Source: Paracoccus stylophorae (lineage in GTDB: Bacteria > Pseudomonadota > Alphaproteobacteria > Rhodobacterales > Rhodobacteraceae). From it: a stretch of 64,000 bases of DNA. Positions 58,913-63,833 of the stretch are shown here, piece after piece. The position numbers and the translations under genes were made by a program. The stretch's first letter is position 1, and each line of letters opens with the position of its first letter. The stretch is taken from assembly GCF_028553765.1 (NCBI RefSeq), contig NZ_CP067134.1:3205001-3269000 (forward strand), given 5' to 3'. The notes under the pieces are model-generated. The model ran no database searches, had not been told where the DNA came from, and saw nothing but the letters and a program-made list of their open reading frames with translations.

Positions 58913-59069
58913 GCCGGTTGCGCTGACCCAGATGCAGCAGGGCCGCAGCCGTCAGCACGATCAGCGCCAGCGCGATTTCGGGCACGCCGGCGGCGAAGAA
59001 CACGAACAGGGTCAGCGCCGCGGCCAGCAGCACGGCGACGATCAGCAGCAGGAAATGCGGCAATGGCAT
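58896..59069 (-). CDS. Small membrane protein upstream of DUF1638
   Basis: A 57-residue product, MPLPHFLLLIVAVLLAAALTLFVFFAAG, with two hydrophobic segments and a His-rich end (RNRHDHEG). GAGGGG is upstream of the ATG. Translational coupling to DUF1638 suggests that the two work together. No family recognised. Confidence 0.65.
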   Translation of the reverse strand: MPLPHFLLLIVAVLLAAALTLFVFFAAGVPEIALALIVLTAAALLHLGQRNRHDHEG

Positions 59070-59196
59070 GACGACCCCTCTTCTTCCTTCCAATATGGGT
59101 CGCGGAAACGGGGATGAAAAGCCCGCGAAAGAAGAAAATCCGCGACGGTTTCATGCGCGACAGGGGGCGGCGGCGCAGCGCCGATGCGGCGGCCAC

Positions 59197-59832
59197 CTAC
59201 CAGCGCAACATGCGCCGCCCGGCCAGCGCGCCGACGGTCGCCACGATCAGGATGCCGATGCCGTACCAGGTCAGGAAGAACAGCGGCAGATCCTCATTGC
59301 AGTGCAGCGCATAGACGCAGGCGGCCAGCCCGCCGCAGGCCAGCCCCAGCATGGCACCGCTGCGCGCGGGCGCGGGGCTGGCCCCCTCGGCCAAGACGCG
59401 CAGCCCCGGAAACAGCGGCAAAAGACCGAACAGCGTGATCGAGATCAGGCACTGGATCGCGGAATTGCCGCGCATATCCGGCCACAACGTCCCCGGCGCG
59501 GCCGAGATCGCGGCCACCAGCCACCACAGCAGCGCCCCGCCGCCGATCAGCACCGGCAGCCACCTTGCCGGCACCGCATGTTCCTGCGGCCGCGTCATCC
59601 GCAGCGCGGCGTAAAGCGCAGGCAGCGCCACGGCCAGCGGCAGCAGCCATTTCATCCGCGTCACCGGCTCGTCCAGCGCCGCACGCAGATCGGGCCGAAT
59701 CCCCAGCACCAGCATCAGCAGCACGACCGCCGCCAGCAGCCCCGCCCCCGCCCGCAGCAGCAGACGCGGCGCAATCGGGCGGGGCGGCGTTGCATCGGCC
59801 GCCAGCAGCGCGATCAGGGTTGGGGTGCGCAT
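59197..59832 (-). CDS. nrsF: Anti-sigma factor NrsF-like (DUF1109)
   Basis: A 211-residue membrane protein of six helices after an N-terminal cytosolic tail. It has 'MKWLLPLAVALPALYAALRMTRP' and two conserved Cys, in 'NSAIQCLISITLFG' and 'VYALHCNEDLPLFFLTWYGIG', as in the Caulobacter anti-sigma factor NrsF. NrsF holds SigF inactive until metal stress. Its ATG overlaps the sigma stop (ATGA), so they are co-translated. 127 bp of 59070-59196 are empty. Confidence 0.87.
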   Translation of the reverse strand: MRTPTLIALLAADATPPRPIAPRLLLRAGAGLLAAVVLLMLVLGIRPDLRAALDEPVTRMKWLLPLAVALPALYAALRMTRPQEHAVPARWLPVLIGGGALLWWLVAAISAAPGTLWPDMRGNSAIQCLISITLFGLLPLFPGLRVLAEGASPAPARSGAMLGLACGGLAACVYALHCNEDLPLFFLTWYGIGILIVATVGALAGRRMLRW

Positions 59833-60386
59833 CACGCCCCCTCCCGGCGCAGCCGGGCCAGACGCTGCAACGCCCGGTGCAGCGCCACGCGCAACCCGCC
59901 GGCGGTCAGGCCCAGGCGCGCGCCGCATTCCGCGTGGCCACGCTCTTCCAGCGCCAGGCATCGCAACAGGGCGGCATCGCGTTCGGGCAGCCGGCCGATC
60001 AGCGATTCGGCATCGCGCCGTTCCAGCGGATCGGGCGCGGGGTCGGCGGGCAGCGAATCGGCAAAATCGTCCACCGGGACATGCACATGCCGACCGCGAC
60101 GGCGAAAGGCATCGACCAGCTTGTGACGCGCGATCGCATAGACCCAGGGGCGCAGCGGCCGGTCGCTGTCCCATGTCGTACGCTTCAGATGGATCGCCAG
60201 CAATGTTTCCTGCACCACATCCTCGCACCAGGCCGCATCCATGCCCGCCGCCCGCGCCCGAACAAGGCCGCGCACGACCGGCGTCACATCGGTCAGCAAC
60301 TGCCGATAGGCCCGCCGATCGCCCGCGATCGCGTGCCGCATCAGTTCGGACCAGTCCGCGTCAGCACGTCCGCCCTGTGTCATCAT
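59832..60386 (-). CDS. sigF: ECF sigma factor (SigF-like)
   Basis: A 184-residue sigma-70 family protein. Region 2 is in 'CEDVVQETLLAIHLKRTTWDSDRPLRPWVYAIARHKLVDAFRRRGR'; region 4 in 'RLPERDAALLRCLALEERGHAECGARLGLTAGGLRVALHRALQRLARL'. It resembles Caulobacter SigF, which responds to heavy metals and oxidants and drives bufferin operons. Start codons ATG 60386 and 60383 are adjacent. The bufferin genes stand directly opposite. Its own promoter (60397-60422) allows autoregulation. Confidence 0.88.
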   Translation of the reverse strand: MMTQGGRADADWSELMRHAIAGDRRAYRQLLTDVTPVVRGLVRARAAGMDAAWCEDVVQETLLAIHLKRTTWDSDRPLRPWVYAIARHKLVDAFRRRGRHVHVPVDDFADSLPADPAPDPLERRDAESLIGRLPERDAALLRCLALEERGHAECGARLGLTAGGLRVALHRALQRLARLRREGA

Positions 60387-60396
60387 CGGTTTTCCC

Positions 60397-60422
60397 TACG
60401 CGCTGACCCGCCCCATCGTTAC
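60397..60422 (-). promoter_or_regulatory. SigF-type promoter of the sigF-nrsF operon
   Basis: Minus strand GTAACG (60422-60417), a spacer of exactly 16 nt, then CGTA (60400-60397). The form GTAACC-N16-CGAA is what I recall for Caulobacter SigF targets. The -10 element is only about 10 bp from ATG 60386, so the transcript may be almost leaderless. Confidence 0.65.
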
Positions 60423-60467
60423 AGCATCGGCGCTGCCCGGTCTGCACGTCACGACCTCGTGAACGAT

Positions 60468-60493
60468 GTAACGCATCGCGCCCCTTCGGCGAA
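60468..60493 (+). promoter_or_regulatory. SigF-type promoter of the bufferin operon
   Basis: GTAACG (60468-60473), a 16-nt spacer and CGAA (60490-60493). The start site should be near 60500, giving a leader of about 45 nt with AGGAGAG at the ribosome site of bufA. Confidence 0.72.
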
Positions 60494-60543
60494 TGGCCTT
60501 GCGGGACGGCCCTGCCGCCCATCCAACACAGGAGAGTCAGAAG

Positions 60544-60822
60544 ATGAGCCCGAAACTCGCAGCAGCAATCGCCACCGCCGTCAGCCTTGCCGGCGCGGCC
60601 GCCCATGCAGACGACGCCAAGAAAAGCGCCGAGATGGAAAAATGCTATGGCGTCGCCCTGGCCGGTCAGAACGACTGCGCGGCCGGCCCCGGCACGACCT
60701 GCGCCGGAACCTCGACCAAGGACTATCAGGGCAACGCTTGGAAGCTGGTGCCCGCCGGCACCTGCTCCGAGATCGAGACGCCGGCCGGCCATAACGGCGC
60801 GCTGGAACCGATCGAGATGTGA
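60544..60822 (+). CDS. bufA1: BufA1-type bufferin precursor (DUF2282)
   Basis: A 92-residue precursor with a Sec signal peptide ([25 protein letters not shown]). The mature part has the four-Cys bufferin pattern: '[31 protein letters not shown]' and '[17 protein letters not shown]'. In the studied Caulobacter proteins, these Cys are converted to thiooxazole rings by a DUF692 enzyme to make a periplasmic copper-buffering peptide. AGGAGAG lies 8 nt before the ATG. It leads the bufABC-doxX operon under the SigF-type promoter. Confidence 0.92.
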
Positions 60823-60831
60823 TCCACGACG

Positions 60832-60856
60832 GGCGCGGGTCGTTTCGATCCGCGCC
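60832..60856. terminator. Attenuator-like hairpin between bufA and bufB
   Basis: GGCGCGGGTCG-TTT-CGATCCGCGCC, an 11-bp stem with one wobble pair, lies 9 nt after the bufA stop. It probably gives high precursor output relative to the modifying enzymes, as expected of a RiPP operon. Confidence 0.6.
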
Positions 60857-60907
60857 TGACGCGCCGCAGACACGGCGCAACCCGATCAGGTTTCAGAAAG
60901 GCATCCG

Positions 60908-61750
60908 ATGACCCTGCCCGCCTTGCCCGGTGTCGGCTTCAAGCCGCAGCATTTCCCCGCGATCCGGAAGACCCGCCCCGATCTGGGTTTTTTCGAGGTT
61001 CATGCCGAAAACTACATGGGTGCCGGCGGCGCCCCGCACGCCATGCTTGCGGCGCTGCGACGCGATCACGCCATCTCGATCCACGGGGTCGGGCTGTCGA
61101 TCGGCGGCCCGCAGCTGAACGAGGATCATCTGGCCCGCGTGAAGGCGCTGTGCGACCGGTATCAGCCCGACAGCTTTTCCGAACATCTGGCCTGGTCAAG
61201 CCACGGCACCGAGTATCTGAACGATCTGCTGCCTCTGCCTTATACGCGGCAGACGCTGGACCGGGTCTGCGATCACGTGGACCGCGTGCAGGAGGTTCTG
61301 GGACGCCCCCTGCTGCTGGAAAATCCCGCCACCTATCTGGTCTTCGCGCACAGCGATATTCCCGAAACCCGGTTCTTGGCCGAGATTGCGCGGCGCACCG
61401 GATGCCTGCTGCTGCTGGACGTCAACAACGTCTTCGTCAGCTGCGTCAATCACCGGACCGATCCGCTGGCGTGGCTTGACGACTTCGCGCTGGATCTGGT
61501 CGCCGAGATCCATCTGGGCGGCCACGACCACGAGGATCTGCCCTCGGGCCCGCTGCTGATCGACGCCCACGGGGCCGAGGTGGCCCAGCCGGTCTGGGCG
61601 CTGTACGACGCGGTTCTGGAACGGGCCGGGCCGCTGCCGACGCTGATCGAATGGGACAACGACGTTCCCGAATGGAACCTGCTGCTGGCCGAGGCCGACC
61701 GCGCCGCCGCCATGCTGTCGGATCGGAGGCGCCATGCCGCGGCCCAGTGA
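60908..61750 (+). CDS. bufB: Multinuclear iron RiPP-modifying enzyme (DUF692/MNIO, BufB)
   Basis: A 280-residue TIM-barrel enzyme of the DUF692 family. Characteristic metal-binding elements: '[13 protein letters not shown]', '[12 protein letters not shown]', '[11 protein letters not shown]', '[10 protein letters not shown]', '[13 protein letters not shown]', 'EIHLGGHDH', 'LIDAHGAEV' and '[13 protein letters not shown]'. Relatives MbnB and TglH bind two or three irons. It is expected to oxidise the Cys of BufA. AAAGG precedes ATG 60908; it overlaps bufC by 17 nt. Confidence 0.93.
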
Positions 61751-62468
61751 CAGCGACGCAGAATTCACCCGCGCTTTCCGCGCCGCGCTGGCCGGCGGTG
61801 CGGTGCCCGATTTCGTGCGTGCGCCGGACCCGGCCGAGGCTGCAAGCCGCTTTGCGGTCTATCGCAACAACGTCGCCCACAGCCTGCGCACGGCCCTGTC
61901 GCGGCGGTTTCCGGCGATCCGGCGGCTGGTCGGCGGGACGTTCTTCGATGCCATGGCGGCCGAGTTCGTCGCCGCGCACCCGCCCGCCTCGCCGGTCATC
62001 CAGGAATGGGGCGATGAGTTTCCGCGCTTTCTGACGATGTTTCCGCCCGTCGCCACCCTGCCCTTTCTGGCCGATGTGGCGCGGATCGAATGGGCGCGCG
62101 GCCGCGCCTATCACGCCGCCGACGCGGTGCCGATGCCGGCCGGAAACCTGGGCCAGACCGGGCCGCTGCGGCTGCACCCGTCGCTGCATCTGCTGCATCT
62201 GGACCATCCCGCCGTCAGCATCTGGCAGGCCAACCAGCCAGACCGGGACGGCCGGACCGACGCCGTGGGCGCCCAGATCGCGCTGATCTGGCGGCGTCCA
62301 GATTTCAGCGTCTCGGTCCAACCGCTATCCCAGATGGACGGCGGCTTCATCGCGGCGCTGATGCAGGGCGCGCCGATGGCGGCGGCCGCCGTGCTGACCG
62401 ACCCGGTGCCGATGCTGACGCTGCTGCTGCGCGACGGGCTGATCTGCGACCCGGGGGCGCCGTCATGA
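61734..62468 (+). CDS. bufC: DUF2063 partner protein (BufC)
   Basis: A 244-residue protein with an N-terminal DUF2063 domain ('[90 protein letters not shown]'), annotated in databases as a putative DNA-binding domain. In bufferin and TglI-type systems this partner delivers the precursor to the MNIO enzyme. GGAGG before ATG 61734, inside bufB. Confidence 0.9.
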
Positions 62469-62929
62469 CCGCCCGCCCCGCAGGTTCCGGCCCCGCCGCA
62501 GGGCTGCGGTGGGCCAACCGGCTGGCCGACCGCATCCCGTACGCGCCTGTCGCGCTGGCCGCGCGGCTGTTTCCGGCGGCCGTCTTCTGGGCCAGCGGGC
62601 GCACCAAGCTGGACGGGTTCAGCCTGAAACCCTCGGCCCTGTATCTGTTCCAGACCGAATATGCCCTGCCGCTGATCCCGCCCGCAGCGGCGGCACGGCT
62701 GGCGGCGACGGCCGAACATGTGTTGCCGGTTCTGCTGGTGCTGGGACTGATGACGCGGCTGTCCGCGCTGGCGCTGCTGGCGATGACGGCGGTGATCCAG
62801 ATCTTCGTCTATCCGTCGGCCTGGCAGACCCACGGGTTGTGGGCCGCCTGTTTCCTGATCGTGATCGCGCGCGGACCGGGCGCGTGGTCGCTGGACGCGG
62901 CACTTGGGCTGGACCGTGCCGCGCGCTGA
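62465..62929 (+). CDS. DoxX family membrane protein of the bufferin operon
   Basis: A 154-residue DoxX/DoxD-type protein with four helices ('[22 protein letters not shown]', '[38 protein letters not shown]'). Such DoxX genes are usual in bufferin operons; the role may be in quinone-linked redox support. The ATG overlaps the bufC stop (ATGA). Confidence 0.88.
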
Positions 62930-62957
62930 GGCCACGCGGACCGGCAGTCACGCCGGC

Positions 62958-63833
62958 TCAGATCAGCCTGGCATGTTCCAGCGCCGCGTCGATCAGGCGG
63001 CGCGTCGGTTCGGTCAGCGCGACCAGCGGCAGGCGCACGCGTTCGTTGCACAGCCCCAGCCGCGACATCGCGTATTTCGCCCCCACAAGGCCGGGTTCGA
63101 CGAAGATCGCGTGATGCAGCGGCATCAGCCGGTCCTGGTATTCCAGCGCCAGCGCATAATCGCCGCGCAGCGTCGCCTCTTGAAACTCGGCGCACAGTTT
63201 CGGCGCGACATTCGCCGCCACGCTGATGCAGCCGACCCCGCCATGCGCGTTGAAGCCAAGCGCGGTCGCATCCTCGCCCGACAGCTGGATGAAATCCGGC
63301 CCGCAGGTGATGCGCTGCTGGCTGACGCGCTCCAGCCTACCGGTGGCGTCCTTGACGCCGATGATCTGCGGCAGATGCGACAGCACGCCCATCGTCTCGG
63401 GCAGCATGTCCACGACCGACCGGCCCGGGATGTTGTAGATGATGATCGGCAGGTCCACCGCCTCGGCCAGGGCGGTGTAATGGGCGATCAGCCCGGCCTG
63501 CGTCGGCTTGTTGTAATAGGGCGTGACCACCAGCGCAGCGTCGGCCCCCACCTCCTGCGCGTGCCGGATCAGGCCGATTCCCTCGCGGGTCGAGTTCGAC
63601 CCCGCCCCCGCGATCACCGGCACCCGGCCCGCGGCCAGCCGCACGACCTCTTCCACGACCAGACGGTGTTCCTCGTGCGTCAGGGTCGGGCTCTCGCCCG
63701 TCGTGCCCACCGGCACCAGCCCGTGGCTGCCCTGATCGACGTGCCAGTCGACCAGTTTCTTCAGCGTGTCCAGATCCAGTTCGCCGTCCTCGGTGAACGG
63801 CGTGACCAGTGCGGGCAACGAACCCTTGAACAT
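62958..63833 (-). CDS. dapA: 4-hydroxy-tetrahydrodipicolinate synthase
   Basis: A 291-residue aldolase for lysine and peptidoglycan synthesis. The Schiff-base Lys is in '[17 protein letters not shown]', the proton-relay Tyr in '[14 protein letters not shown]' and the Thr-Thr pair in '[18 protein letters not shown]'. It converges with the bufferin operon and is divergent from the last gene in the window; 100 bp of upstream sequence contain no other gene. Confidence 0.96.

Follow-up and report, generated by a model that had tools for sequence, protein, structure and literature searches.

The bufferin-1 locus of Paracoccus stylophorae

What do the six genes at positions 59197-62929 of a 64,000-nucleotide stretch of the Paracoccus stylophorae genome (GCF_028553765.1, contig NZ_CP067134.1, positions 3,205,001 to 3,269,000; hereafter the window) make, and which stress would switch them on? 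The original prediction read them as a bufferin module next to a divergent extracytoplasmic function (ECF) sigma factor and an anti-sigma factor, forming a self-contained metal-stress island. Our analysis makes it highly probable that they form a standard bufferin-1 (Buf1) biosynthetic cluster, switched by an ECF16-type SigF/NrsF pair and producing a peptide that buffers copper. The locus is an ordinary member of a published design, with its layout, its regulator and its chemistry class all in print.

The predicted six-gene set was recovered with exact coordinates and all frames intact, and each protein scores above the gathering threshold of its Pfam family, as the four-cysteine BufA1, DUF692, DUF2063, DoxX and NrsF-like assignments had anticipated. 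On the plus strand, bufA1 (60544-60822) encodes a bufferin-1 precursor of 92 residues with four cysteines and a DUF2282 domain (PF10048, 91.6 bits, cut-off 22.4), and is followed by bufB (60908-61750), which encodes an MNIO/DUF692 maturase of 280 residues (PF05114, 341.8 bits), bufC (61734-62468), which encodes a DUF2063 partner of PME-type 1 with 244 residues (PF09836, 89.4 bits, cut-off 27.2), and doxX (62465-62929), which encodes a DoxX-family membrane protein of 154 residues (PF07681, 65.1 bits, cut-off 23.6). On the minus strand, sigF (59832-60386) encodes an ECF sigma factor, probably of the ECF16 type, of 184 residues in which Sigma70_r2 and Sigma70_r4_2 both exceed their cut-offs and which also passes NF009165 (212.5 bits, cut-off 198). 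The adjoining nrsF (59197-59832, minus strand) encodes an NrsF-family anti-sigma factor of 211 residues (PF06532, 151.5 bits, cut-off 26.8). The two operons, nrsF-sigF and bufA1-bufB-bufC-doxX, diverge from a 157-bp gap. The overlaps of 1 base between sigF and nrsF, 17 between bufB and bufC and 4 between bufC and doxX suggest translational coupling of these pairs. The position of the DUF2063 gene directly after the MNIO gene is that expected of a Buf1 cluster, and the six families are those of CC3252-CC3257, which bears out the claim of a full bufferin module as in Caulobacter.

Base composition does not mark the locus as an island, since its GC content (0.65-0.72 in 1-kb windows over 59000-63000) matches that of the preceding 5 kb (0.62-0.72). 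Genome-wide, PF05114, NrsF and DUF2282 each gave a single match, thus this is the only Buf1 locus found in the genome.

Cysteine residues and family assignment

Cysteines C34, C45, C53 and C74 of BufA1 are conserved in 81/81 aligned sequences (the window and 80 relatives), and its N-terminus, read by eye in the translation, resembles a Sec-type signal sequence. A longer bufA frame opens at 60493; this is unlikely to be the true start because its first base coincides with the final base of the predicted -10 element, and GGAG lies about nine bases before the start at 60544. In Buf1, modification falls on the central cysteines, and a disulphide joins the outer two (PMC12452194), from which C45 and C53 would be the modified residues and C34 and C74 the disulphide pair in the window. 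The Caulobacter Buf1 peptide carries thiooxazoles and chelates copper (PMC12452194), and thiooxazoles of bufferin 1 are also cited in PMC13097082, which puts the absorbance of compounds of this kind near 305 nm. A Buf2 precursor was rejected with 21.5 bits against the BufA2 model (cut-off 60).

The original prediction would fall if the DUF692 protein belonged with non-bufferin MNIO enzymes. Judged by NCBIfam profiles only, it is of the BufB type: NF050167 (MNIO_BufB) scored 372 bits, above its cut-off of 310, whereas HvfB reached 220 (cut-off 360) and MbnB, ApyH and ChrH fell far below their cut-offs, which speaks against a non-bufferin MNIO. Its best relative of solved structure is 3bww (E 1.9e-33), and the two top-ranked of its best 80 relatives are Paracoccus loci with 84 and 76% identity. 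These 80 are the best of at least 588 confirmed relatives from one scan.

NrsF proteins are described as having six membrane helices. The window protein shows C128 and C178 conserved in 66/66 aligned sequences, and two additional cysteines, C166 and C172, found in 3/66 and 1/66. By their spacing, C128 and C178 would correspond to C131 and C181 of Caulobacter NrsF, the conserved cysteines whose change impairs repression (PMC3511200).

Predicted SigF-type promoters in the shared intergenic region

Each arm of the gap carries a SigF-type site of the form GTAACG-N16-CGWA, with the predicted promoter of the buf operon at 60468-60493 (plus strand, GTAACG-N16-CGAA) and that of sigF-nrsF at 60397-60422 (minus strand, GTAACG-N16-CGTA). 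The ECF16 consensus is (T/C)GTAAC-N17-CGAA (PMC8315932), and both promoters carry TGTAAC-N17, followed by CGAA before bufA1 and by CGTA, one base off, before sigF. The SigF-binding sequence of Caulobacter is GTAACC-N16-CGAA, equal in spacing to the consensus, with the start sites of CC3254 and CC2907 mapped by 5' rapid amplification of cDNA ends (PMC3511200); the -35 element is thus GTAACG in the window and GTAACC in Caulobacter. The predicted sigF transcript (60386-60400) would start a few bases before the ATG and may be close to leaderless; the start site of CC2907 was mapped at -7 (PMC3511200).

Among the best 80 relatives, SigF is divergent in 59 and without a match in the DNA examined in 15, some of which are short contigs. 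In the remaining 6 (L015, L016, L017, L022, L023 and L025), sigF follows doxX downstream on the same strand, together with nrsF wherever the contig is long enough. Within the 59 divergent gaps, GTAAC-N15..18-CG[AT][AC] occurs in 52 on the buf side and in all 59 on the sigF side, and 52 gaps have it on both, against means of 0.46, 0.24 and 0.02 in 50 rounds of dinucleotide shuffling. The stricter GTAAC-N17-CG[AT] was found in 50, 53 and 45, respectively. A second, weaker BufA-like frame stands in tandem upstream of bufB in 21 of the 80 relatives (L045, L046, L048, L050 and others), mostly Rhizobiales, and tandem bufferin precursors are mentioned in PMC12452194.

The shared intergenic region that had been singled out therefore does hold a SigF-type site in each direction, but it is not special to this genome, because 59 of the 80 relatives, Caulobacter and Sinorhizobium are alike. 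A novel sigma/target arrangement was rejected on the same grounds, since it is already published. In Caulobacter crescentus/vibrioides, CC3252-CC3257 show the same locus order, as derived from locus numbers and operon order (PMC3511200), SigF-dependent promoters with the same spacing before both operons and two conserved NrsF cysteines; however, a further bufferin locus of Caulobacter, CC2907-CC2905, also depends on SigF, whereas the genome of the window yielded a single match each for MNIO and DUF2282. In Sinorhizobium meliloti, the ECF16 pair rpoE7-ecfR7 diverges from a four-gene operon (SMb20530-SMb20527) with DUF692 and DUF2063 genes, and TGTAAC motifs lie on both sides, as in the window. 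The Buf1 clusters in PMC12452194 have a DUF2282-MNIO-DUF2063-DoxX core with sigma factor and NrsF genes reported, and nothing in the window falls outside that description. The literature on these systems further includes PMC6180224 and PMC5748585. In a narrow search of open-access text, no paper on a Paracoccus bufferin was found, and "Paracoccus" and "DUF2282" occurred together only in PMC3511200.

SigF-type sites across the genome and upstream of msrP

The pattern GTAACS-N16-CGWA has 5 exact matches in the genome, the site before sigF among them, against 15 for its reversed form, and a second pattern gave 5 matches against 6 for its control. A genome-wide SigF regulon drawn from the pattern was therefore rejected for want of enrichment over the reversed-pattern control, which makes the position of a match informative rather than the count. 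One further match (C1:2098976) lies at the 3' end of an open reading frame (ORF) with a convergent neighbour; at C1:725416, there is no forward ORF of 100 residues in the stretch listed, and C1:2377440 is another of the genome matches. At C1:1425889-1425915 (L004 1501-1527), a TGTAAC-N17-CGAA sequence stops a few bases short of the GTG that opens an ORF which by eye resembles a membrane protein; this match may be chance.

One of the 5 exact matches, at C1:151423-151448 (L090 1147-1172), lies 120 bases upstream of msrP, which encodes a periplasmic methionine sulfoxide reductase (NCBIfam MsrP model, 452 bits, cut-off 207). The Caulobacter YedY/MsrP protein (CC2748) belongs to the SigF regulon as a target that is partly SigF-dependent (PMC3511200, PMC8224329), which made msrP the natural gene to check here. 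The bufferin locus of the window is the only Buf1 locus found, but the "self-contained" part of the original prediction becomes doubtful because a SigF-type site also precedes the unlinked msrP.

The genus is covered by 121 genomes, and an msrP could be placed in 100 of them; the rows left out are 15 genomes without a match and 6 in which the matches were weak or fragmentary. Within 330 bases at msrP, GTAAC-N17-CG[AT] is present in 23/39 genomes with NrsF and 3/61 without, and between -100 and -130 in 20/39 and 1/61, while the reversed control pattern occurs in 0/39 and 1/61. The 61 include five genomes (G010, G026, G049, G050 and G088) with an NrsF match below the cut-off. Fisher's test gave a p of 2e-9 for the plain association of site and NrsF, with related genomes counted as independent. 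The site is found in 16/25 genomes with bufferin and 7/14 with NrsF but without bufferin, and 16/39 NrsF-positive genomes lack it. A tree of msrP starts (285 columns, 35/97 inner branches well supported) offered 10 independent pairs differing in NrsF. A site anywhere in the region went with NrsF in one or two pairs and hardly ever against it (p 0.5-1), and a site at -100 to -130 went with it in one or two and against it in one (p 1). Among genomes with NrsF, 7 pairs showed no tie between the site and bufferin.

Two results count against msrP as a further SigF-driven gene: the 10 pairs, of which two or three were informative, gave no significant support (p 0.5-1), and the site overlaps the start of a small divergent ORF that matches no Pfam family. 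The msrP link was accordingly discarded as proof of regulation, its significance being lost once phylogeny was allowed for. From the Caulobacter regulon and the position of the site, control of msrP by SigF is plausible, though unproven by comparison. Two side observations belong here: the divergent small ORF over the site shows a signal-like start by eye, and genome G115 (L230) has an msrP site at -121 but no NrsF match, either as a remnant or with a SigF system that escaped detection.

NrsF loci with and without bufferin in the genus

DUF2282 was found in 31 of the 121 genomes and NrsF above the cut-off in 46, with all 31 among the 46 (in G001 and G070, both DUF2282-positive, NrsF appears only as separate pieces). 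The other 15 genomes show NrsF without DUF2282. The surroundings of all 15 loci were scanned, and ORFs were inspected in five. Three of these, L121 (4942-7952), L122 (5404-5886) and L133 (7397-10907), carry MsrB and/or MsrA by Pfam beside NrsF. SigF is also present in L121 and L133, which contain a small methionine-rich ORF whose start looks signal-like by eye, in one of them with an MXKDX-repeat match below the cut-off, and SigF-type sites occur near the Msr genes of these bufferin-less loci. Inspected ORFs of L123 and L130 included no Msr or methionine-rich cassette.

The L121/L122/L133 type resembles sigF/nrsF of Azospira suillum (with mrpX and yedY1) and bcrS-abcS of Brucella (with bcrXQP). 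Like the window, those systems pair an ECF16 sigma factor with an NrsF-family anti-sigma factor; they control Msr genes, as is predicted for msrP here, and the promoter mapped in Brucella has TGTAAC like the window sites. They differ in that their target, directed at reactive chlorine, is a methionine-rich peptide plus Msr instead of a bufferin. As a tentative proposal, which we would not call probable, the Paracoccus ECF16 SigF/NrsF pair may be a shared periplasmic stress sensor with an exchangeable target cassette, either bufferin or a methionine-rich peptide with MsrA/MsrB, while the unlinked msrP would be the less variable arm. If this is true, the buffering of copper and the repair of methionine belong to a single response. 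The narrow search of open-access text returned no paper in which "bufferin" and "methionine sulfoxide reductase" both occur as whole words; PMC8224329, in its description of the SigF regulon, does treat MsrPQ alongside the genes that were later named bufferins.

Proposed switch and alternative signals

In the resting state, the membrane protein NrsF would hold SigF. A thiol-reactive stress in the periplasm, for which an excess of copper is the likeliest candidate, would perturb NrsF through C128/C178 and free SigF, which would then transcribe both arms, its own operon in a positive feedback and bufA1-bufB-bufC-doxX. BufB with BufC would turn C45 and C53 of BufA1 into thiooxazoles, with a C34-C74 disulphide, and the product, exported by Sec, would chelate copper in the periplasm. 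The regulon probably reaches the unlinked msrP. Copper as the signal is consistent with Caulobacter, where it induced the SigF regulon in the two media and the two cell types tested and where a sigF::Tn5 mutant grew poorly with copper (PMC8224329).

Several observations weigh against this account. The window proteins stay below the cut-offs of some stricter models: BufC with 65.9 bits against HvfC (cut-off 142), DoxX with 47.1 bits against HvfX (cut-off 80) and NrsF with 89.4 bits against NF042994 (strict cut-off 300). According to PMC3511200, Caulobacter sigF is not strongly autoregulated under metal stress. RpoE7 reporters of Sinorhizobium were unresponsive to H2O2, cadmium and chromate, in the work that describes them, and the homologous gig cluster of Cupriavidus had no effect on copper resistance (PMC8224329). 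Others of these points favour a different signal. ECF16 pairs respond to HOCl in Brucella (PMC8315932) and to reactive chlorine in Azospira, in both cases with control of Msr genes, the Caulobacter sigF mutant is reported to be impaired under oxidative stress in stationary phase (PMC8224329), and the Brucella study counts Caulobacter SigF as responsive to reactive oxygen species (PMC8315932). The same cluster and chemistry could thus answer to an oxidant, reactive chlorine or another thiol-reactive species, with bufferin and MsrP as a periplasmic oxidant defence, in keeping with the site before msrP and with the congeners that show MsrB, MsrA and methionine-rich proteins beside NrsF in place of bufferin. 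We nevertheless consider an oxidant signal unlikely, since Kohler et al. describe SigF-dependent genes of Caulobacter that were not induced by reactive-oxygen generators (PMC3511200), and copper does induce the regulon there.

That the cluster serves another metal (gold, silver, mercury, cadmium or chromate) seems very unlikely, although gold and silver as well as copper induce gig/dax, the homologous cluster of Cupriavidus (PMC8224329), and fusions of MerC with bufferin exist (PMC12452194). Chromate and cadmium do induce the Caulobacter genes, yet mutants, the sigF deletion included, are not sensitive to either (PMC3511200), and the metal growth phenotype described for a sigF mutant in PMC8224329 is with copper. 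Six open frames, intact conserved cysteines and exact matches at both promoter sites make a silent or decayed cluster, in favour of which nothing was found, extremely unlikely. A copper-buffering Buf1 cluster under SigF/NrsF is thus the reading we prefer.

For the Alphaproteobacteria, the locus means that the bufferin design of Caulobacter, including the two-way SigF promoter, recurs across the class and is readable from sequence alone. Within Paracoccus, the sites predict msrP in the same regulon in part of the genus, which makes the NrsF signal, copper or oxidant, testable there.

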